A stretch of 61,316 bases of DNA from positions 1-61,316 of the forward strand of contig JALZVU010000124.1 of assembly GCA_023301795.1 (NCBI GenBank). The letters are read 5' to 3'. A model generated the notes under the pieces. That model was given only the letters and a program-made list of their open reading frames with translations. It did not search any database and was not told where the DNA came from. Below are positions 32,010 to 43,885 of this stretch, piece by piece (the stretch's first letter is position 1; every line of letters begins with the position of its first letter). This stretch comes from Granulosicoccus sp. (lineage in GTDB: Bacteria > Pseudomonadota > Gammaproteobacteria > Granulosicoccales > Granulosicoccaceae). A program made the position numbers and the translations under genes.

Positions 32010-32085
32010 GGGGCGTTAGCTCAGTTGGTAGAGCATCTGACTTTTAATCAGGTGGTCGTAGGTTCGAATCCTACACGCCCCACCA
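32010..32085 (+). tRNA. tRNA-Lys (anticodon UUU)
   Basis: A 76-base cloverleaf: acceptor GGGGCGT (32010-32016) pairs with ACGCCCC (32075-32081), discriminator A, and encoded CCA (32083-32085). The D arm contains AGCTCAGTTGGTAGAGC, the anticodon loop CTTTTAA gives UUU, and the T arm contains GGTTCGAATCC. It lies 97 bases after cpoB, a position where tRNA-Lys genes are common near tol-pal. No repeat of its 3' end was noticed downstream, so there is no sign of an integrated element here. Confidence 0.98.
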
Positions 32086-33444: not shown

Positions 33445-34542
33445 ATGTCTGTCTTGCCTCGCACGTCTTTATTCTTGCTGCCAGCATTTTTGTCGGGTGC
33501 ATTGATCTCGTCATCGGCGTTTGCACTAGAGGGCAGTTGGCAGGCAGGCATTAATGTTGGGTTGTCCAATCTTCAGCCCGATACCGACGGTTCTGGCTTC
33601 ACCCTCGAGGATGATCGATCCACTGCAGTCAGCGCCTATCTGTCATTAGATATTACGCCCATTTTTTCAGCAGAGATTGCTTTCACGGATCTGGGTGAGG
33701 CTGAGTTGAGCCAAGATCAGGACATTTCTTATCAGGCTATCTCGGTTGGAGCAACGGCCTATGTCTGGGGCGCAACCGCGGCGCAGAACCGTGGGGATGG
33801 CATATCTGCTTATCTGCGATTAGGTTTGAGTTCCATCGATAACGAATCTGATATCGCATTAAATGAATCTAACAATAATGCTGTGTGGTTGGGTGCGGGT
33901 GTTCAGTATCCAATATCGAATAATTGGGGGCTTCGCCTTGAGCTGACCAGTTACGACGGTGATGCTCAGGCTTTATTGGCTGGTGCTTTCTGGCGTGTCG
34001 GTGGTCAACCTAAAAGTCGTTCATCACGGCCAGCGCCTGATGGCGGTTTGATACGTGTACCGGCGCCTACCAACGATGTAGTGGTAGCGCCTGTTGCCCC
34101 GCCTCAACCTGTGCCCACACCTACGCCTGCGCCGATCGCTGAGAGCGTTGCATCTTGCCCATCTGCAGCACAAGCAAAAATTCAAGATTCTGCCCAGTGC
34201 AATCTACTGAACAGCGTCGTAGCTGGTTTGGAGTTTGTTGGCAATACCGCAGAAATTGCGCCTGGTAGCAATGCCGCACTTGATCAGATCGCAAATGCCA
34301 TGTTGGCTAATCCGGCTGCTGGTGTAGAAATCAGAGTGCATACGCAGTCTTCTGGCAACGTGCAGCAAGATGCGGAGCGTGCAGCTCAACGAGCGCGATC
34401 GGTGGCTCGTTACCTGGTCCAAAAAGGTGTGTCTGTTGGCCAGCTAGGCGCGAAGGCCTTTGGTGCCAGCCAACCTCTGGGTGATGATCGAACGACTGCT
34501 GGACGTAAGATCAATAACCGAGTTGAACTAAGCTCATTTTGA
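33445..34542 (+). CDS. OmpA-type barrel protein with atypical C-terminal OmpA domain
   Basis: The 365 residues have a signal peptide (cleaved after AFA, about 27), an eight-strand-type barrel at about 28-192 (GSWQAGINVGLSNLQPDTDG at the start, then AVSAYLSLDITPIFSAEIAF and GISAYLRLGLSSID), a Pro-rich linker (VAPPQPVPTPTPAPI), and an OmpA-like domain at about 250-365. In that domain the usual HTD motif reads HTQ (299-301), so the Asp that binds diaminopimelate is missing, while the Arg in AQRARSVARYL remains. It is the first of three paralogous barrels in the locus; unlike the other two it has no lipobox. Confidence 0.88.
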   Translation: MSVLPRTSLFLLPAFLSGALISSSAFALEGSWQAGINVGLSNLQPDTDGSGFTLEDDRSTAVSAYLSLDITPIFSAEIAFTDLGEAELSQDQDISYQAISVGATAYVWGATAAQNRGDGISAYLRLGLSSIDNESDIALNESNNNAVWLGAGVQYPISNNWGLRLELTSYDGDAQALLAGAFWRVGGQPKSRSSRPAPDGGLIRVPAPTNDVVVAPVAPPQPVPTPTPAPIAESVASCPSAAQAKIQDSAQCNLLNSVVAGLEFVGNTAEIAPGSNAALDQIANAMLANPAAGVEIRVHTQSSGNVQQDAERAAQRARSVARYLVQKGVSVGQLGAKAFGASQPLGDDRTTAGRKINNRVELSSF

Positions 34543-34732
34543 TTCAGGCTTGGTTTATTCATCGATAGGTTTGAGGTATCGGTCGCAGATCGATAGATCG
34601 CTGTGTGACTTGTTACTCGAATTGTTTATGAGGTAGCAGGGTTTTCGGGTTTGCGCCGATAGCGAGGTAATCAAAGGGTCAATACAGGGCTCTTTCGCTT
34701 ATTTCGCGTATTGGCAGGAACCCGAACCCACG

Positions 34733-36709
34733 ATGAAAACAGATCCGTCATCAGCACGCCCGATTGTTGCAGTTACTCGCCTTGCGCCATTGCGTAAGAG
34801 TATTACTGCGCTGCTTGTAGCCAGCCTGATGTCTGGTTGTGCGGCGCTAAGCAACCCCGACGATATCAAACTTAATATACCTGCCAATACGTCTGACTTT
34901 ACCAGTCGTTTGTATGCAGGGGCGGCCATGGGTAGTTCGCGTCTGAGCCCTAACACCCGTGGCGAAGGGTTTTCTGTAGATTCAGAAAGCGACGCGGGTA
35001 CGCAGCTTCGCCTTGGGTATGATGTGCACAACATGTTGTCTGTCGAAGTGGATACTTCGGTGTTGGGTACTTCCCAACTCAGAGGGCAAAATGCTGCTGC
35101 GGGTCAGACGGGTGAAGTAAAGTATTCTGCCGCTACGTTCAGCGCCCTGGTGTACGGGTGGAGTGGCGTGCAAAATCGGTCACGCCGTGAGGGGCTCAGC
35201 GCCTATGGCAGACTCGGTTTTTCAGCGCTGAGTAAATCGTCCAACGTTCCTGAAATTGAGGAAAGTGGTGCAGTACCCATTGTGGGCATCGGTGCCGAAT
35301 ACGGGTTTGTGAACGGGCTAGGCATTCGTTCTGAAATTACGCGCTTTGACAGTGACGTTACCTACATCGGCTTTGGCGCAGTTTATCGGTTCGGTATTTC
35401 TCCAATGGGTATCGGTCGGCTGGTTGCTAAGGCTGCCGAGCCTGGATTGGCCGGCGCCAATCCTGACGTATCAAGACGCGGTGGAAGCTCGCAAGAGACT
35501 GTGGTGGAACGATATGCAGGTTCTGGTGCACGACCTGCTGGAGGCCGTGCCCCGCACTTGCATTATAATTCAGGAGCAGAGCCTGACGCGCGCTACGTGG
35601 GCAGCATGGCTGATCGATGGCGCCCCGCAATGCGTGCTGGCGACCGGGATGTGGATGGCGTGATGGACGGTGCGGATAGTTGTCCTGATACTGCTAACCA
35701 TGTAACGGTTGATCGCTACGGTTGTGGGCTTTTCGATGCCGTTCTGCACGAAGTCACGTTCAAAAGTGGTTCGCGCTGGCTGACGCCACGTGCACGGGGT
35801 CAACTTGATTTACTGGGGGAGACGTTGTTGGCATTTCCCGAGTCGCGAGTGCAGGTACGTGCTCACACAGACTCGTTGGGGCCTGCTGACATGAACCTTG
35901 GGCTGTCGTCACGCCGCGCTGAAGTCGTTGTTCAGTATCTGCAATCTCGCGGAGTAAACGAGCTCCAGCTGCAAGCTGTCGGGATGGGTGAGGCACAGCC
36001 TCTGGATAGCAACCAGACGCTCGTTGGTCGCAAGCGCAATCGACGGGTAGACATCGTAACCTTGCCAGATCAGGATGCCGGACAGTTACTGTTTGCTGCG
36101 AATGTGCCCTCAAATGTTGTCATGACAGTGCAAGACAGTTCCGCATCTCAAGGGCAATTAGCCGGCACGCTTGCGGTGAATAACGATGAGTGGAATTCGA
36201 GGATTCATTCAAACAAGAGCAGCAACGCGCCGGCATTGCTGGCCGCTTTGCCAGCGCCGGATAAGCGCAGTACCAGAACTAAAATTCCTGTAACAGGTGA
36301 TCGGCTTGTTCCGCGGGTCGAGGCTTTGCCTCAGCCCGGCTATGCACCAGATTTTCAAGTCGACGGTGTTTTGAAGGGTGTGAGCTTTGCGCAGGGTAAT
36401 AGTACCGTTTCGCAAGATTCTAAGGAGGCGTTACAGCCTTTGGTGAATGCCTTGACTGCGAACCGTTCCGTTACTGTTGCGATTATGGCGCACACGGACA
36501 ACCAAGGCGGCACGGACGATAACAAGGCGTTATCGACGAAGCGCGCCCAGTCGGTGGTTGAGTACCTTGTGGAGCAGGGCGTTAGTCCAGCGCGGCTGAA
36601 GGCTGAGGGATATGGCGAACTTCTGCCGTTGGTTCAGAACGTTACCGAGGCGGATAAAGAGCGAAACCGCCGCATTGAAGTGCGAGTGTTGCAAGATAAT
36701 TACCGTTAG
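34733..36709 (+). CDS. Lipoprotein with OmpA-type barrel and two OmpA-like domains
   Basis: The 658 residues have a lipobox LMSGC (Cys36), a barrel at about 60-225 (SRLYAGAAMGSSRLSPNTRG, then EGLSAYGRLGFSALSKSSNV and EYGFVNGLGIRSEITRFDSD), one thrombospondin-type-3 element (RDVDGVMDGADSCPD, about 303-318), a first OmpA domain (about 335-445, HTD 378-380), a long Ser/Ala-rich linker, and a second OmpA domain (about 545-655, HTD 587-589). Both keep the peptidoglycan-binding Asp and Arg. Two such domains in one lipid-anchored barrel are unusual and imply firm or bivalent attachment to the cell wall. The barrel is paralogous to those at 33445 and 40934. Confidence 0.86.
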   Translation: MKTDPSSARPIVAVTRLAPLRKSITALLVASLMSGCAALSNPDDIKLNIPANTSDFTSRLYAGAAMGSSRLSPNTRGEGFSVDSESDAGTQLRLGYDVHNMLSVEVDTSVLGTSQLRGQNAAAGQTGEVKYSAATFSALVYGWSGVQNRSRREGLSAYGRLGFSALSKSSNVPEIEESGAVPIVGIGAEYGFVNGLGIRSEITRFDSDVTYIGFGAVYRFGISPMGIGRLVAKAAEPGLAGANPDVSRRGGSSQETVVERYAGSGARPAGGRAPHLHYNSGAEPDARYVGSMADRWRPAMRAGDRDVDGVMDGADSCPDTANHVTVDRYGCGLFDAVLHEVTFKSGSRWLTPRARGQLDLLGETLLAFPESRVQVRAHTDSLGPADMNLGLSSRRAEVVVQYLQSRGVNELQLQAVGMGEAQPLDSNQTLVGRKRNRRVDIVTLPDQDAGQLLFAANVPSNVVMTVQDSSASQGQLAGTLAVNNDEWNSRIHSNKSSNAPALLAALPAPDKRSTRTKIPVTGDRLVPRVEALPQPGYAPDFQVDGVLKGVSFAQGNSTVSQDSKEALQPLVNALTANRSVTVAIMAHTDNQGGTDDNKALSTKRAQSVVEYLVEQGVSPARLKAEGYGELLPLVQNVTEADKERNRRIEVRVLQDNYR

Positions 36710-36855
36710 CACGAGTAAGGCTGGTAATAAGATAAGTGCTTCACAGATAAACACTTCTTCAAGTTTTTTTGCACTGATGTGAGGTTGCCAGAGTGGGCGC
36801 TGGTAGACCTACTCTGGTGTGTAACCTGTTATCGTATGTCTAGTACCGGAGAGTT

Positions 36856-39800
36856 GTGACACCGGTGAAATGGACAAGCAAAACAGGTGTCGCTAAGCGA
36901 CAGGCATCACTCATGAATAAACTCACCACCCCTCGTTTTTCGCAACCAGCTAAGCCTGGTTCCCTCACCTCGGTGGCTTTTGCAATAAGCCTTGCCTTAG
37001 GTGGTTTTTCTGCGACAGCGTACGCGATGCCTGCGGGATCGGCATCTGTACCAACCAGTTCCTGGTCCGCTATCTTCGATCAATCCAGGATGAGCCTGGT
37101 AGACGGTCCGGATTCAGACGGAGACGGAATCCGCAATCAGGATGACCTGGACGATGACAACGACGGCATACTCGATTCGGCGGAAGGTCTTATTGATAGC
37201 GACGGCGATGGCTTTGCCGATGGATCATCGGTCGATACCGATTCTGACGGCACCCCCGATGCGTTGGATCTTGACAGCGATAATGACGGTATTCTGGATA
37301 ACATCGAAGCGCGTCTGGACACCGTTGCTGCGAGAGCGCTTGATCAGGTTACCAACGGCGCGATCGACATTGGCATTGCGGTAGGCGCTAACGGCATTGC
37401 TGACGTCATCGAGACTTTTGTAGATTCCGGTGAATTGGCGTTTGGCTTGCAGGATTCGGATGCTGATGGCACCCCTGATTTTCGCGATCTGGATTCGGAT
37501 AACGATGCAATTTTTGATCTGGTAGAGGCTGGCGGTGTAGACAACGATTCTGATGGCCGAATCGATGGGTTCAATGACACTGACGGTAAAGGTGTTGCCG
37601 ACAGTGTGCAGTCTGCATCACTGCCTTTATTCGATACAGACGGCGATGCAATTCTGGATTTTCGCGATCTGGATTCAGACAACGACACGCTCTCCGATAC
37701 TATCGAAGGGGGAGGCAATCGCAGTTTCCCGACAGATACCGATGGTGATGGTGCGCCAGATTTCCGCGAAAACGATAGTGATGGCGACGGCATTTCAGAT
37801 CGAGTAGAGGCTGGCGCCAATCCGGGCGCACCTGTAGACACAGACGGAGACGGTACGCCTGATTTTCAGGATGCAGATTCAAATCCTTCTTCAGGTTCGG
37901 GAAATGGTGCACCATCAGCCCCGCCAACTGATTTACCAAGCGATGGTAGTCGTCCAGATGTGGATGGCGACGGTATTGCCAATCAGGATGATCTGGATGA
38001 TGACAATGACGGCATTCTGGACACCGAAGAAGGCATTATTGATGCGGACGGCAATGGTGTAGCAGATTCAAACTCCAGAGATACTGACGGTGACGGGACG
38101 CCCGATGGTAACGATCTGGATAGTGACAATGATGGCATTCTCGATTTTTACGAAGCGCGTTTTAACGCAGCAACCATTGCCGCATTAGATGTCGTGCAAA
38201 ACGGCGCCATCGACATTCAAGTGCCTGTAGGTGCTAATGGTCTGGCTGACAGCATCGAGACCTCGGTAGATTCGGGTAGCCTCAGCACAGCCTTGTTTGA
38301 CACTGATGGTGATGGCATATTCGACTACCTGGATCTGGACAGCGATAACGACGGCATTTCTGACCTTGTCGAGGCAGGTGGCAGCGACAGCAACGCCGAT
38401 GGCCGGATTGATAACTTTGTCGACCAGGATAATAAAGGTGTCGACGACGTAGTTCAGGCTAGCGCGTTACCCATTTTTGATACTGACGGAGATGGCATTC
38501 GGGACTTCCAGGATCTGGATTCGGATGGCGATGGCCTGCCTGATAGCGTAGAAACAACTGGAAATCTTGCAACGCCTCCAGATACTGATGGCGACGGAGC
38601 TGCTGACTATCGTGAGCAGGATGCTGATGGTGATGGTGTGCTTGATAGCATAGAGGCTGGATCAGATATCAATAATCCGGCCGACAGTAACAACAACGGT
38701 ATCCCTGATTTCCAGGAAGGCTCCTTTCAGGGTTCTGGTGCTGGCGGCGGTGCGGATGCTCCGGTAGATGGCAATCCTGACGATAACGGTCCTGTAGACA
38801 ACGGTCCTGTCGATAACGGTCCTGTAGACAATGGCCCTGTTGATGACGACCCACGGCCCGATCGAGATGCAGATGGTATTGCCAATCAGGATGATCTGGA
38901 TGATGATAATGACGGCATCCTTGATTCGGAAGAGGGCATTATCGACGCTGACGGTAATGGTGTGGCGGATGCTAATTCGCGAGACACTGATGGAGACGGT
39001 ACGCCAGATGGCAATGATCTGGACAGCGATAACGACGGCATTCTGGACCTTGTTGAAGGGCGTCTGGATGCGCAAACCATTGCAGCCTTAGACCCTGTTC
39101 GAATCGGCGCCATTGATATTCGCGAGCCAGTCGGTGCTAACGGCATCGCTGATGTTATAGAGACATCACCGGATTCAGGTTCTATCAGTACAAATCTCAG
39201 AGATACAGATGGCGATGGCATCTTTGACTATCTGGACATCGACAGTGATGGAGACGGTATCGGAGACCTGGTGGAAGCAGGTGGATCCGATGCTGATTCT
39301 GACGGGCGTATTGATAACTTCATTGATCAAGACGATAAAGGGGTTGCTGATTCGGTGCAGGCCAGCGCCTTACCGCTTTTTGATACCGACGGTGACGGCA
39401 CACTGGATTTTCGTGACCTTGACTCCGACAACGACGGTCTTCCAGACCGGGTTGAAACGCGTGGGCCACTAGGGCTCCCGACTGACAGTGATGGCGATGG
39501 CGCTGCTGATTACCGCGAGCTGGATTCGGATAACGATGGTATCGACGATGCAACTGAAGCTGGCCCTGATGCAAACTCACCTGTAGACACCAACGGCGAC
39601 GGGATTCCTGATTTTCAGGAACCACTGGGTGGTGCCGCGCCTGTAGTACCAGATGCCGGTGCTGATGGCGATGGCGATGGGCAGGCAAACGGTGTAGATC
39701 TGGACGATGATAACGATGGCATTGCCGACCTTGTTGAAGGTAACGCAGACAGTGATAGTGACGGTATCCCTGACTCTCTTGATTTGGACAGCGACAACGA

Positions 39801-40941
39801 CGGCATTCTTGATTCACTGGAAGGCAATGGTGATGCAGACAACGATGGCGTTGCAAATTTTCGTGATCTTGATAGTGACAACGATGGTCTTTACGATGCA
39901 CTCGAGGGCTCTCGTGGCGCAATTTCAGCCACTGGCCGACTCTCCGCAGGCAGTGTTGATAATATGGGGTTAGTGGCCGGTGCCAGTGCCCAAATTGTGG
40001 ACACTGACGGCGACGCAGTTCCTGACTGGCTGGATCTGGACTCTGACAACGATGGACTGACCGACGTGTCTGAATCGTTGGGAGCCGATCAGAACCTCGA
40101 TGGCATGCTTGACAGCACAGCTGACGCAAACTCAGATGGAGCTGATGATTCTCTGGCTAACCGTGCATTACAGGCTGATGATCGTGACAGCGATCGAATT
40201 CCTAACTACCGGGATCTGGATAGCGATCAGGATGGCATTGCTGACATCGTAGAGAACTTCAGCGCAGGGGCTGATCTTGATGGTGACGGGCGAATAGATA
40301 ACTTCGTTGATTCCAATAGCGACGGATACGATGATAGCTTTGCGGCCGCAACAAGAGCGTTGGTGGACAGCGACAGAGACGGACTGCCCAATAGTCTGGA
40401 TCTGGATAGTGACAATGACGGTATCAACGATCTGGTAGAAGCAGGGTTTACCGATACCGATGACAATGGGCAAGTTGATGTCCTTGTTGATAGCGATGGA
40501 GACGGTATCAGTGATGTCAATGACGCCGATATTACCGGTGGTAATGACAGCGACGGCGACAGCATCGACGATGCGGTCGACAGTGATTTTGCTTCAGATA
40601 CTGATTCGGACGGAGATGGGGTTGTTGACGGCGGTGATCCAGACAGTGATGGCAACGGCTTTGCCGGACCATTGGCTGATGGGGTTGGCCAGGGCACGCC
40701 TATCGTGCTACCCGACACCGACAGTGATGGTGTACCTGATATTGTTCAGGCAGGTTCATCGCGTGCTGGCGAAATTGAAACAGGTCTGGATGGTAGTGGA
40801 TTTGGATGCAGTATTATGCCTGTACTTTCATCGAGCACCGACGCACGGTTTGATCCGTCGTTAGGGCTTCTATTAGGTAGCAGCGCATTGTTGTTAGCAA
40901 TGCGACGGTTCCGCATTCGAGTGTCAAAAGTTGATGTCTGA
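36856..40941 (+). CDS. Giant thrombospondin type-3 repeat surface protein with C-terminal sorting-like tail
   Basis: The 1361 residues are strongly acidic and consist largely of thrombospondin-type-3 calcium-binding elements (DTDGDGIFDYLDLDSDNDG and variants). A signal peptide (SVAFAISLALGGFSATAYA) leads in. Three long modules start at Asp86, Asp368 and Asp669; each contains an embedded non-TSP3 segment of the form NGAIDI..VGANG.AD.IET..DSG. A DNGPV x4 linker separates modules 2 and 3. The C-terminus has GSGFGCSIMP (Cys1318), a hydrophobic helix and MRRFRIR, like a tripartite sorting signal. It is likely an exported, calcium-stiffened rod. The GTG start at 36856 has GGAG nearby; ATG 36913 is an alternative. 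Confidence 0.85.
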   Translation: MTPVKWTSKTGVAKRQASLMNKLTTPRFSQPAKPGSLTSVAFAISLALGGFSATAYAMPAGSASVPTSSWSAIFDQSRMSLVDGPDSDGDGIRNQDDLDDDNDGILDSAEGLIDSDGDGFADGSSVDTDSDGTPDALDLDSDNDGILDNIEARLDTVAARALDQVTNGAIDIGIAVGANGIADVIETFVDSGELAFGLQDSDADGTPDFRDLDSDNDAIFDLVEAGGVDNDSDGRIDGFNDTDGKGVADSVQSASLPLFDTDGDAILDFRDLDSDNDTLSDTIEGGGNRSFPTDTDGDGAPDFRENDSDGDGISDRVEAGANPGAPVDTDGDGTPDFQDADSNPSSGSGNGAPSAPPTDLPSDGSRPDVDGDGIANQDDLDDDNDGILDTEEGIIDADGNGVADSNSRDTDGDGTPDGNDLDSDNDGILDFYEARFNAATIAALDVVQNGAIDIQVPVGANGLADSIETSVDSGSLSTALFDTDGDGIFDYLDLDSDNDGISDLVEAGGSDSNADGRIDNFVDQDNKGVDDVVQASALPIFDTDGDGIRDFQDLDSDGDGLPDSVETTGNLATPPDTDGDGAADYREQDADGDGVLDSIEAGSDINNPADSNNNGIPDFQEGSFQGSGAGGGADAPVDGNPDDNGPVDNGPVDNGPVDNGPVDDDPRPDRDADGIANQDDLDDDNDGILDSEEGIIDADGNGVADANSRDTDGDGTPDGNDLDSDNDGILDLVEGRLDAQTIAALDPVRIGAIDIREPVGANGIADVIETSPDSGSISTNLRDTDGDGIFDYLDIDSDGDGIGDLVEAGGSDADSDGRIDNFIDQDDKGVADSVQASALPLFDTDGDGTLDFRDLDSDNDGLPDRVETRGPLGLPTDSDGDGAADYRELDSDNDGIDDATEAGPDANSPVDTNGDGIPDFQEPLGGAAPVVPDAGADGDGDGQANGVDLDDDNDGIADLVEGNADSDSDGIPDSLDLDSDNDGILDSLEGNGDADNDGVANFRDLDSDNDGLYDALEGSRGAISATGRLSAGSVDNMGLVAGASAQIVDTDGDAVPDWLDLDSDNDGLTDVSESLGADQNLDGMLDSTADANSDGADDSLANRALQADDRDSDRIPNYRDLDSDQDGIADIVENFSAGADLDGDGRIDNFVDSNSDGYDDSFAAATRALVDSDRDGLPNSLDLDSDNDGINDLVEAGFTDTDDNGQVDVLVDSDGDGISDVNDADITGGNDSDGDSIDDAVDSDFASDTDSDGDGVVDGGDPDSDGNGFAGPLADGVGQGTPIVLPDTDSDGVPDIVQAGSSRAGEIETGLDGSGFGCSIMPVLSSSTDARFDPSLGLLLGSSALLLAMRRFRIRVSKVDV
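37111..39640 (+). repeat. Three in-frame modules of about 280-300 codons
   Basis: Modules begin at 37111, 37957 and 38860 with near-identical openings (D.DGDGI.NQDDLDDDNDGILD). Each continues through the same order of motifs: an E-G-I/L-I-D-(S/A)-D-G element, an NGAIDI insertion, a D-GRID-F segment, a V-Q(A/S)(S)A(S)LP(L/I)FDTDGD element and a final DFQ(D/E). Modules 2 and 3 are more alike than either is to 1, suggesting a recent duplication. Confidence 0.8.
38782..38841 (+). repeat. Four tandem 15-base repeats encoding DNGPV
   Basis: Four copies of a 15-base unit (GATAACGGTCCTGTA and close variants) at 38782-38796, 38797-38811, 38812-38826 and 38827-38841, each coding Asp-Asn-Gly-Pro-Val. 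They form the linker between modules 2 and 3 of the giant TSP3 protein. The copy number could vary by slippage. Confidence 0.9.
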
Positions 40942-42118
40942 TTACACGTTAAGTCAAATCCGGCTAGCTGCGATGCTAGCCGGTGTCACCGTTATCAGCG
41001 GCTGTGGAACGGGTAACGTGTTCCAGACTGATAGCGACTTTGATAGTCGATTTTACGCCGGTGGCGGGTTATTGATCAGTCAACTTGAACCTGAGACCAG
41101 CGGCGTTCAAGGTGTGAGCGTTGACGACTCTGACAGTGAAGGACTGGGTCTACTACTGGGTTATGATTTTAGTAATCGGTTTAGTGTTGAGGGACATATT
41201 GCTGACCTAGGTGACGCCACTTTTTCACCCGCAGGATCCATCTCCTATCAAGTAGCGGGTTTAAGCGGTTTGTTCTATGCTTTTGGCAATGAAGGGTCTC
41301 GACAGCGGCGAGAAGGATTCTCAGGTTTTGGAAGACTTGGCATTGGTACGTTGGACAACGATGCGGAGCAGGTAAATTTTAATCAGATTAATAGTGTTCA
41401 TCTGCTCGCAGGAGCAGGCGTCGAGTACGGTTTTAGTAATGGTTTAGCGGCCAGAGCTGAGTTGGTAGCGCACGAGACCGATGCACGGTACGGGCAGCTT
41501 GCGTTGTTGTATCGTTTTGGCGGCGAGCCTCGCCGCGGGCGGAACTCAACCTTTGTTGATCCAGTCCCTGAGCCAGACGACTTACCTGCTGCTAGCACGG
41601 ATTCAGAAGGAAGCGCGGTAGACCTCTCCTCCGTGGTGACAGCGGCGGTTGCCGATGAGCCAGCACCTGTCGCGGTACCACTCGACCTAGATGCTGATGC
41701 AGACGGTGTAACGGATAGTGTGGATGAATGCCTGAATACAGAGCCAGGCTTGCCTGTGAATCTGGAAGGTTGTGAGGTTTTTAACGGCGCGATCGAAGGT
41801 ATCAACTTTCTTCCGAATTCAGCTGACCTGACTGAGAGCGCGGCCACGATACTGTCTGAGGTTGCGCAAACACTGCGTGATTCTGGCGACGTAGCCATCA
41901 CGATAGAGGCTCATACTGACAGCTCCGGCAACGCTGCAGACAATCTGCAATTGTCCAGACGTCGAGCACTCGCTGTTGCGCGTTTTCTTGTTGATGAGGG
42001 GATAGCAGGTAGCAGGCTGAAGCCGCAGGCGTTTGGAGAGTCCAGGCCCAGGCAGCCAAATGCCACCGCTGCTGGCAGAGTAGCAAATCGTCGTGTTGAA
42101 TTTAATATTGTGCGTTGA
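40934..42118 (+). CDS. Lipoprotein with OmpA-type barrel and C-terminal OmpA domain
   Basis: The 394 residues have a lipobox VISGC (Cys24), a barrel at about 38-205 (SRFYAGGGLLISQLEPETSG, then EGFSGFGRLGIGTLDNDAEQ and EYGFSNGLAARAELVAHETD), a TSP3-like element (LDADADGVTDSVDECLNTEP), and an OmpA-like domain at about 280-394 with HTD (327-329) and the conserved Arg in RRRALAVARFL. It is the third barrel paralogue of the locus and should sit in the outer membrane bound to peptidoglycan. Its start lies eight bases inside the end of the giant TSP3 gene, indicating coupled translation and a functional pair. Confidence 0.87.
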   Translation: MSDYTLSQIRLAAMLAGVTVISGCGTGNVFQTDSDFDSRFYAGGGLLISQLEPETSGVQGVSVDDSDSEGLGLLLGYDFSNRFSVEGHIADLGDATFSPAGSISYQVAGLSGLFYAFGNEGSRQRREGFSGFGRLGIGTLDNDAEQVNFNQINSVHLLAGAGVEYGFSNGLAARAELVAHETDARYGQLALLYRFGGEPRRGRNSTFVDPVPEPDDLPAASTDSEGSAVDLSSVVTAAVADEPAPVAVPLDLDADADGVTDSVDECLNTEPGLPVNLEGCEVFNGAIEGINFLPNSADLTESAATILSEVAQTLRDSGDVAITIEAHTDSSGNAADNLQLSRRRALAVARFLVDEGIAGSRLKPQAFGESRPRQPNATAAGRVANRRVEFNIVR

Positions 42119-42139
42119 GTTTTTTCTGAGGTTTTTCCC

Positions 42140-43885
42140 ATGATGAATCTTGCGCCCTCTGCAAGTGTTTTAAACAACGGTTCGCGCGTATCTTTTGTCG
42201 TTGCTGTGTCGGTTGCTCTAGCGGCGAGCTGCGGCGGCGCCATAGCTGCTGATACTGGTGATGCGCCGATCTCCTTTGGGGCTGCAACGCACGAAATAGT
42301 TGCGTTGAGTCCATTTTTGGGCGATGTTCCAGCTGACGACAACCCTCCAGTAGGCGATCAATCGGCTTTGGCTGATGACAACGACGGTCTGGACGACGAG
42401 GGGGGCGTTTTTGATTTTCCGGTTCTTGTGCAAAATGGAAAATCGTACGATACGAATGTGTTTGTCACAAACCCTTTGGAGGTTTCGGCCACTCTCGCAG
42501 GTTGGATTGACTTTGATGGTGATGGTGCATTTGACACTGACGAATTTTCGACAGCGCCAGTGTCTGCAGGTGCGCAGAACGTAAAAATCAAACTTGCCTG
42601 GCCTGCTTTGACGGGAGTGACTACATCGTTTGTGGGAACAACTTACGCCCGTTTTCGTATCACCACTGCCGCTCTGTCGGCCAGTGATGCAGCAGGCTCA
42701 GCACCCGATGGTGAGGTAGAGGATTATTCGCTACAGGTACAACTGGATTCTGATGGTGACGAACTGCCCGACGCTGTGGACCCTGATAATGACAACGATG
42801 GCATTCCTGACGCTGTCGAGGGCATAACGGCTGATACCGATAGCGATGGAATACCTGACTACCTGGATACTGATTCAGACGGTGATCTTATTCCTGACTT
42901 CATTGAAGCCGGTGAAAGCCCATTAGCCCCCGTTGACACAGACGGCGATGGACAGCCCGATTTTCTGGATACTGATTCAGATAATGATGGTGTGCTAGAC
43001 ATTGATCAACCTACCGATGACAGCGACAGGGATGGCCTGACTGATGCTGTGGAGGGCTCGCTGGATCCCGATGGAGATGGTATCGGAAATTCGCGCGATC
43101 TGGATTCTGATAACGACACCATCCCGGATGCTATTGAACGAGGTCAGTCCGATCAGCCGCTTGATACTGATGGCGACGGAATTGCTGATTATCTGGATCT
43201 GGACAGTGACAACGATGGTATCGGCGATATTCGGGAAGCTAACGGCGGAGAGCTGAACGTCAATATTATCGATCTGGACAATGATGGGCGAGTAGATGAC
43301 GCCCAGCTTACAGGCATCAATGGCTATCTCGACCGTGCCGAAACGGCATCCGATTCCGGTGTGCCAATATTTGCAATTATTGATAGTGATGGAGACGGCG
43401 TACGCGACTTTCGTGATCTTGATAGCGACGATGATTCGGTAAGTGATTTACTCGAGACGCAAGGTGTTGATACTGACAGTAACGGTGTTCTCGACAGCGC
43501 TACTGATCTGGATCAGGATGGCTTTATAGATGGCGGCAATACGCTGCTCAATCGTGATTTTCTGGCTGATACTGATGAAGATGGCATACCTGATTTTCAG
43601 GATGCTGATGCTGATGGCAGTGAATCTGGAGCGGTGGCCCCTGAAAATGATTCGAATCCTGCGACACCGGCGGATGCCAATCCTGATGGTGCGCCAGATA
43701 GCGAGCCAGATAGCACCCTAGCTGCCACACCCATCGTTGAAACCGGATTATCAGGTGGAGCTGGATGTTCTGTTGCTGGCGGGTCGTCGGGAGCTGGGGC
43801 AGGTGTTGGGGTGTTCTTCCCTGCAATGTTGGTGTTTTGCCTGGTGGGTCTGCTGCGAAGACGTTACTTTGTTCGCATGAATTGA
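42140..43885 (+). CDS. GEVED-domain and thrombospondin type-3 surface protein with C-terminal sorting-like tail
   Basis: The 581 residues begin with a signal peptide (VSFVVAVSVALAASC; cleavage at AIA or lipid attachment at the Cys). Residues about 35-200 form a beta domain ending in DGEVEDYSLQV, the GEVED signature. About 12 TSP3-type calcium-binding elements follow (210-505). The C-terminus repeats the organisation of the giant TSP3 protein: VETGLSGGAGCS (Cys543), a hydrophobic helix VFFPAMLVFCLVGLL and RRRYFVR. A GAGG ribosome-binding site precedes the ATG. It closes the locus, 21 bases after the third OmpA gene. Confidence 0.84.
   Translation: MMNLAPSASVLNNGSRVSFVVAVSVALAASCGGAIAADTGDAPISFGAATHEIVALSPFLGDVPADDNPPVGDQSALADDNDGLDDEGGVFDFPVLVQNGKSYDTNVFVTNPLEVSATLAGWIDFDGDGAFDTDEFSTAPVSAGAQNVKIKLAWPALTGVTTSFVGTTYARFRITTAALSASDAAGSAPDGEVEDYSLQVQLDSDGDELPDAVDPDNDNDGIPDAVEGITADTDSDGIPDYLDTDSDGDLIPDFIEAGESPLAPVDTDGDGQPDFLDTDSDNDGVLDIDQPTDDSDRDGLTDAVEGSLDPDGDGIGNSRDLDSDNDTIPDAIERGQSDQPLDTDGDGIADYLDLDSDNDGIGDIREANGGELNVNIIDLDNDGRVDDAQLTGINGYLDRAETASDSGVPIFAIIDSDGDGVRDFRDLDSDDDSVSDLLETQGVDTDSNGVLDSATDLDQDGFIDGGNTLLNRDFLADTDEDGIPDFQDADADGSESGAVAPENDSNPATPADANPDGAPDSEPDSTLAATPIVETGLSGGAGCSVAGGSSGAGAGVGVFFPAMLVFCLVGLLRRRYFVRMN

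Follow-up and report, generated by a model that had tools for sequence, protein, structure and literature searches.

The window analysed here is a stretch of 61,316 nucleotides from Granulosicoccus sp. (contig JALZVU010000124.1, our C124, of assembly GCA_023301795.1, a 5.78 Mb genome in 313 contigs). It encodes on its forward strand five consecutive open reading frames (ORFs) for OmpA-like barrel proteins and large acidic proteins with TSP3-type repeats, and they lie where a preliminary description of the sequence had placed them: ORF1 at 33445-34542, ORF2 at 34733-36709, ORF3 at 36856-40941, ORF4 at 40934-42118 and ORF5 at 42140-43885. The distances between them are, in order, 190, 146, -8 and 21 bp. 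The eight-base overlap of ORF3 and ORF4 (40934..40941) was confirmed, with the ATG of ORF4 at 40934 and the TGA stop of ORF3 at 40939-40941; an alternative start of ORF4 is the TTG at 40931. This pair, a rod gene and the barrel gene that follows it, is the main subject of this report.

ORF4 is a predicted lipoprotein with the lipobox VISGC (Cys at 41003), followed by an eight-strand barrel (41051..41515), a TSP3-like linker with two Cys residues (41687..41773) and an OmpA domain (41807..42091; Pfam 79 bits), in which the alignment shows an intact HTD...R motif. Signal peptides and lipoboxes of the window ORFs were read by eye. In the AlphaFold2 model of ORF4, built from four sequences (mean predicted local distance difference test, pLDDT, 64.4; predicted template modelling score 0.43), the eight barrel strands mostly have pLDDT values of 75-90 and the linker is disordered, with values below 50 over most of its length. 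Foldseek matched this model to the OmpA structures 9a2m and 1bxw (E 1e-7 for 1bxw) and also to 5wtl, the periplasmic portion of OmpA from Capnocytophaga. The OmpA-type build of an eight-strand barrel and an OmpA domain was found by Pfam in ORF1, ORF2 and ORF4, where both OMP_b-brl and OmpA score above cut-off, and for ORF4 by the model and its fold as well. The kinship of the three barrels, proposed before from shared motifs, was borne out by alignments of ORF4 with ORF1 (31%, E 2e-41) and with ORF2 (37%, E 3e-26).

ORF3 consists of three modules of about 285-300 amino acids and a tail. Its annotated start is a GTG, and the in-frame ATG at 36913 is likelier, fitting the N-termini of its relatives better. 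The description of ORF3 and ORF5 as acidic TSP3 rods holds for their composition (25.5% Asp plus Glu and 49 D.D.DG motifs in ORF3; 22.4% and 15 in ORF5), with Pfam TSP3 matches staying below cut-off; a sequence search of the PDB with the ORF3 rod returned no match. The C-terminal ends of both proteins had been overlooked. ORF3 ends (40777..40938) with ETGLDGSGFGCS, whose Cys1318 lies at 40807, then 15 residues, a hydrophobic transmembrane segment and the basic end RRFRIR. ORF5 ends (43739..43882) with ETGLSGGAGCS, whose Cys543 lies at 43766, a transmembrane segment and LLRRR. Judged from sequence, this is the three-part layout of Cys-type C-terminal sorting tags, of the JDVT-CTERM kind. The JDVT-CTERM model NF033191 (cut-off 27 bits) scores above cut-off on orthologs, with up to 48.1 bits on the ORF3 side (genome G015) and 33.6 and 33.3 bits for the ORF5 orthologs of G022 and G023. 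Read through the in-frame TGA, the ORF3 tag also matches our profile A1 (E 2.4e-14), a 20-row alignment of rod-barrel polyproteins that spans the junction described below and in which the tag Cys is invariant (20/20 rows).

Such polyproteins became apparent when locus stretches of relatives were fetched and their ORFs compared with those of the window. G numbers denote genomes of the comparison set (G000 is the window's own), L numbers fetched loci and C numbers contigs. The place of ORF4 was found in 22 of 24 genomes of the genus, the window included; the contig of G004 ends after ORF1-ORF2, and G011 was not located. PEPCK lies downstream of it in 21/21 relatives with the locus. Of the 22 genomes, all have the ORF4 barrel, 17 have the rod and 14 have ORF5. 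The presumed co-conservation of OmpA and TSP3 genes thus held among the barrels and between rod and barrel, whereas that of ORF5 was partial. Rod and barrel are split into two genes in six genomes, and all six pairs overlap at stop and start: by 8 bp in the window, by 22 bp in G008 and G020, and by 4 bp in G012, G014 and G019. In the other 11 of the 17 rod-bearing copies (G001, G005, G006, G007, G010, G013, G015, G016, G017, G021 and G023) they form a single uninterrupted ORF, three of these being truncated on the rod side by the contig start. The order along such an ORF is rod, tag, transmembrane segment, basic loop, second hydrophobic segment, lipobox, barrel and OmpA domain, with 49-64 amino acids from the tag Cys to the lipobox Cys in the 11 orthologs. 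The stop of the split forms (6/17 copies) falls within the basic loop. On the ORF4 tree, the split and single-ORF states need at least two changes, in either direction. At least 35 stop-free frames in at least 17 of the 24 genomes span tag to barrel, some of which were used to build A1. One unusual frame, on contig C94 of G005 (L102), stays open for 7519 amino acids and ends in tag, internal signal and barrel-OmpA.

According to the preliminary description no characterised system had this build. This was not supported, as the TraA/TraB pair, which serves outer-membrane exchange in myxobacteria, shares it. There, the overlap of the two genes is four bases long (PMC3325183), TraB consists of a barrel, a short TSP3 linker and an OmpA domain, and a TraA:TraB ratio of 1:1 was reported (PMC12045341). 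A Cys-tagged surface protein is followed by an overlapping gene for a barrel, TSP3 linker and OmpA domain (PMC3325183, PMC12045341), and ORF3-ORF4 likewise show a C-terminal Cys tag on the first protein and an overlapping second gene. The pairs differ in their first protein, which carries a variable recognition domain and repeats rich in Cys in TraA and TSP3 repeats in ORF3; Pfam and NCBIfam searches of ORF3 at E 0.1 found neither a TraA variable (PA14-like) domain nor Cys-rich repeats. Membership of ORF4 in the TraB family itself was rejected, as model NF033763 gives 95.7 bits against a cut-off of 700 and covers only residues 207-394 (linker and OmpA domain). From these sequence comparisons we consider it probable that ORF3 and ORF4 encode a TraA-TraB-like surface rod and its wall-binding partner in the outer membrane, by overlapping genes in the window and, in relatives, in the form of one polyprotein that would be cleaved.

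To follow the junction beyond the locus, we assembled a set of loci from the Granulosicoccus relatives and from searches with ORF4 alone and with A1, comprising 401 frames of at least 250 codons, 110 of them with a barrel match. At least 200 residues precede the barrel in 50 of the 110, and in all 50 a hydrophobic hairpin, made of two hydrophobic segments and a basic loop, stands directly before the barrel. As a control, 13 of 846 windows elsewhere upstream in 44 of the 50 ORFs passed the same test. Regions found with ORF4 alone contributed 35 of the 50 and A1 regions 15, the latter favouring the hairpin because A1 contains it. The 50 ORFs span ten families of one class; at least four TSP3-like motifs precede the barrel in 49, and 44 are OmpA-like at their end. 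By a loose pattern, the tag is of the Cys type in 33 hairpins and of a glycine, non-Cys type in 17. In a phylum-wide search, 11 of 398 genomes matched at E 1e-45; among the matches listed, only that in the genome of the window extends from tag to barrel and the other ten match the C-terminal part, and we therefore make no claim outside the class.

The hairpin bears on whether the single-ORF chain is cut at all. Left uncut, the rod would remain joined to the N-terminus of the barrel and would serve as a calcium-binding spacer or sensor in the periplasm, between wall and outer membrane. The ORF4 model agrees with such a location, as eight strands would put both termini on one side, and C-terminal OmpA domains are periplasmic. 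Against this, the uncut chain would have to retain the two hydrophobic segments and the basic loop found in 50/50 ORFs, the stop lies inside that loop in the split copies, and two ORFs with a long TSP3 part and an OmpA end in which no barrel was matched (L116 of G032 and L187 of G097) lack the hairpin as well. Because of the hairpin we demoted the periplasmic rod to a rival, which we regard as quite improbable.

We next asked which proteases could act on the tags. Outside the window, its genome encodes MrtJ, the intramembrane protease cognate to tags of the JDVT-CTERM kind (contig C18; 107.4 bits, cut-off 75), and MrtJ scored above cut-off in 21 of the 24 Granulosicoccus genomes, including this one. 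MrtJ and rhombosortase were then searched for in 21 genomes of the comparison set; G097, one of the 21, showed no tag and is left out of the MrtJ counts that follow. All eight genomes with Cys tags (G000, G016, G066, G098, G124, G168, G235 and G335) have MrtJ above cut-off, versus one (G075) of the 12 in which only non-Cys tags were seen, where matches below cut-off in G154 and G387 were scored as absent. The Fisher p value of 7e-5 is optimistic owing to the kinship of the genomes, and G335 owes its place in the Cys group to its contig with mrtJ, which was fetched later; otherwise the counts are 7/7 and 2/13. Rhombosortase is above cut-off in 20 of the 21, missing only from G124, a Cys-tag genome, and therefore does not separate the tag groups by itself. 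Both tag kinds and both proteases occur in G016, two of whose polyproteins (L112 and L113) carry glycine, non-Cys tags. A barrel-OmpA gene on the same strand adjoins mrtJ in 23 of 25 loci, the two misses being copies in G014, one of them at a contig start; that genome has two mrtJ copies (L199 and L200). Among four further mrtJ loci, a barrel-OmpA neighbour is present in G335 and absent in G075 and G098, and in G124 an OmpA ORF is cut by the contig end. Rod with tag, barrel and mrtJ are consecutive in G066, G235 and G335. The window's genome also encodes the secretin GspD of a type II secretion system (608 bits).

These neighbourhoods also speak to the possibility that rod and barrel are unrelated in function, the rod being released or used otherwise and the barrel being an ordinary OmpA/OprF-like wall tether. 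Five of the 22 genomes lack the rod (G002, G003, G009, G018 and G022) and eight lack ORF5, all with the ORF4 barrel retained, and a barrel-only paralog is encoded on C29. The retention of the barrel in the five rodless genomes indeed suggests that it has also a role of its own. Wholly separate functions are nonetheless unlikely in view of the single-ORF versions in ten families, the overlap in 6/6 split pairs at the locus and the barrel gene beside mrtJ in 23/25 loci.

Several observations weigh against ORF3-ORF4 being a tagged rod and its anchor, or against the wider pattern. Besides the five rodless genomes and the two hairpin-free ORFs, NF033191 gives the ORF3 tag 14.8 bits, under its cut-off, and matches neither the ORF5 tag nor anything in G014, a split genome. 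The AlphaFold2 model of the ORF3 rod was unusable (pLDDT 43.5). MrtJ was not found in three of the 24 Granulosicoccus genomes, among them the single-ORF genomes G017 (88% complete) and G021 (76% complete). Strongly supported branches of the ORF4 tree force only one change between split and single-ORF states, and split pairs elsewhere do not always overlap (L182, L183 and L210).

With these points on the scale, we lean, by a small degree, towards a general rule: rod and wall-anchored barrel pairs of Gammaproteobacteria would be polyproteins with an excision hairpin, in which a sorting tag and an internal signal peptide stand back to back. Tag chemistry (Cys with MrtJ, Gly with rhombosortase) and signal type (lipoprotein or ordinary) would vary, and stop-start overlaps would interconvert the polyprotein and two coupled genes with function kept. 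The nearest case in print is MXAN_5598 of Myxococcus xanthus, a single ORF with an adhesin region, an internal MYXO-CTERM tag, a barrel and an OmpA domain, the N-terminal part of which is proposed by the authors to be processed; MrtX is reported to cut the MYXO-CTERM tag, which is related to the tags seen here, in E. coli too (PMC11980579). In the sections of that paper considered here, MXAN_5598 is presented as one atypical case, and there is no discussion of split orthologs, of further tag types or of an internal signal peptide (PMC11980579). The JDVT-CTERM/MrtJ system shares the Cys tag and the protease family, and mrtJ beside a JDVT-CTERM gene is already in print; our genomes differ by having many tags each, tags within polyproteins and a barrel-OmpA gene adjoining mrtJ. 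GlyGly-CTERM tags have the same three-part layout, and the 17 glycine, non-Cys hairpins resemble them, whereas rhombosortase is a serine rhomboid protease, the tag has no Cys and the tag type in the window is different. The words 'internal' and 'OmpA' are absent from the part of the 2011 GlyGly-CTERM paper that we consulted (PMC3237569). Our search of the literature on internal JDVT-CTERM or GlyGly-CTERM polyproteins found none, and a 2024 J Bacteriol paper on MrtJ may say more. In the literature searched, MXAN_5598 is thus the single case, and we did not find the pattern across genus and class, the internal signal peptide or the swaps between split and single-ORF forms. FbcH of Bradyrhizobium is a polyprotein that bacteria divide at an internal signal sequence; it gives inner-membrane cytochromes and has no sorting tag.

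The remaining products, of ORF1, ORF2 and ORF5, would play accessory parts at this surface locus. The signal peptide of ORF1 is of the ordinary type; ORF2 has a lipobox (Cys36 at 34838), a barrel, a weak TSP3 unit and two OmpA domains. Of the earlier proposal that two barrels are lipid-anchored and carry peptidoglycan-binding domains, the lipobox-like SGC in ORF2 and ORF4 was confirmed, and OmpA domains turned out to be present in all three. TSP3 elements within the OmpA proteins were recovered only weakly in ORF2 (17.1 bits, cut-off 25), ORF1 and ORF4 having no Pfam TSP3 match. PdsO, a sortase-associated OmpA-like family, was ruled out for all three, as TIGR03789 (cut-off 152.2 bits) gives 46.6 for ORF1, 56.3 for ORF4 and 108.7 for ORF2. 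Where wall-binding relatives have HTD, the OmpA domain of ORF1 reads HTQ; the motif could be located in 16 of its orthologs, two of which keep HTD, and three further orthologs had no motif match. In Acinetobacter OmpA the Asp of HTD has a role in wall binding, and by its sequence the ORF1 domain may not bind the cell wall. ORF5 has a signal peptide, a GEVED domain (42494-42733; E 4e-13), which had been overlooked, and a TSP3-type acidic part. In PHROGs, ORF1, ORF2 and ORF4 match OmpA types only and ORF3 and ORF5 have no match; an RNA family search of the window found only tRNA-Lys at 32010.

The preliminary description went further and had all five products form one calcium-dependent rod machine. 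The five genes are indeed consecutive and their order is common to congeners. Rod and ORF5 are lost separately, though, and such variation from species to species makes it unlikely that the five genes form a fixed machine. Five congeners have an additional rod-tag-lipobox-barrel polyprotein between ORF4 and ORF5 (L047 4164-6800, L049 13449-16226, L050 4914-7523, L056 12915-15683 and L058 3433-6240). A promoter and terminator scan lent no support to the single transcript that had been suggested, with nothing above shuffled sequence (7 promoter-like sites versus 11.3 in shuffles; 13 terminator-like sites versus 9.0). Considering all this, we give the five-part machine very little credence. The idea of a rod displayed with a barrel anchor survives for ORF3-ORF4, with its rod tag, barrel lipobox and OmpA domain, gene overlap and 11/17 single ORFs, while the five-gene unit is loose.

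How the ORF3-ORF4 products might reach their places can be outlined. An N-terminal signal peptide would take the ORF3 rod across the inner membrane until it stops at the C-terminal tag, where MrtJ would cut near the Cys, itself probably lipidated; the rod would then reach the cell surface, perhaps through the type II secretion system, where it could bind the barrel, bind calcium and act in adhesion. ORF4 would be a lipoprotein that crosses the outer membrane with its barrel and grips the cell wall by its OmpA domain. In the window's genome, translational coupling would keep rod and barrel near 1:1. In relatives, with tag and signal peptide back to back, cuts at both periplasmic ends of the hairpin would yield the same two proteins, the tag being cut by MrtJ or rhombosortase and the signal by LspA or LepB. 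Standard topology rules predict that, with the basic loop between the hydrophobic segments, the tag Cys and the site of signal cleavage both lie at the inner membrane's outer face. As both ends of the barrel are predicted to be periplasmic, an uncut rod would be so too, and the two cuts would free it for sorting.

To our knowledge, bacteria have few cellular polyproteins from which two exported proteins are cut. If the hairpin is excised, one ORF would give an outer-surface rod and a wall anchor in equimolar amounts, through two different membrane proteases, and pairs of species with the split and the single-ORF forms would offer a ready test of the need for a 1:1 ratio of adhesin and anchor. 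Granulosicoccus is a genus known from kelp surfaces, and the TraAB kind of adhesin-anchor pair would extend from the myxobacteria to the Gammaproteobacteria.

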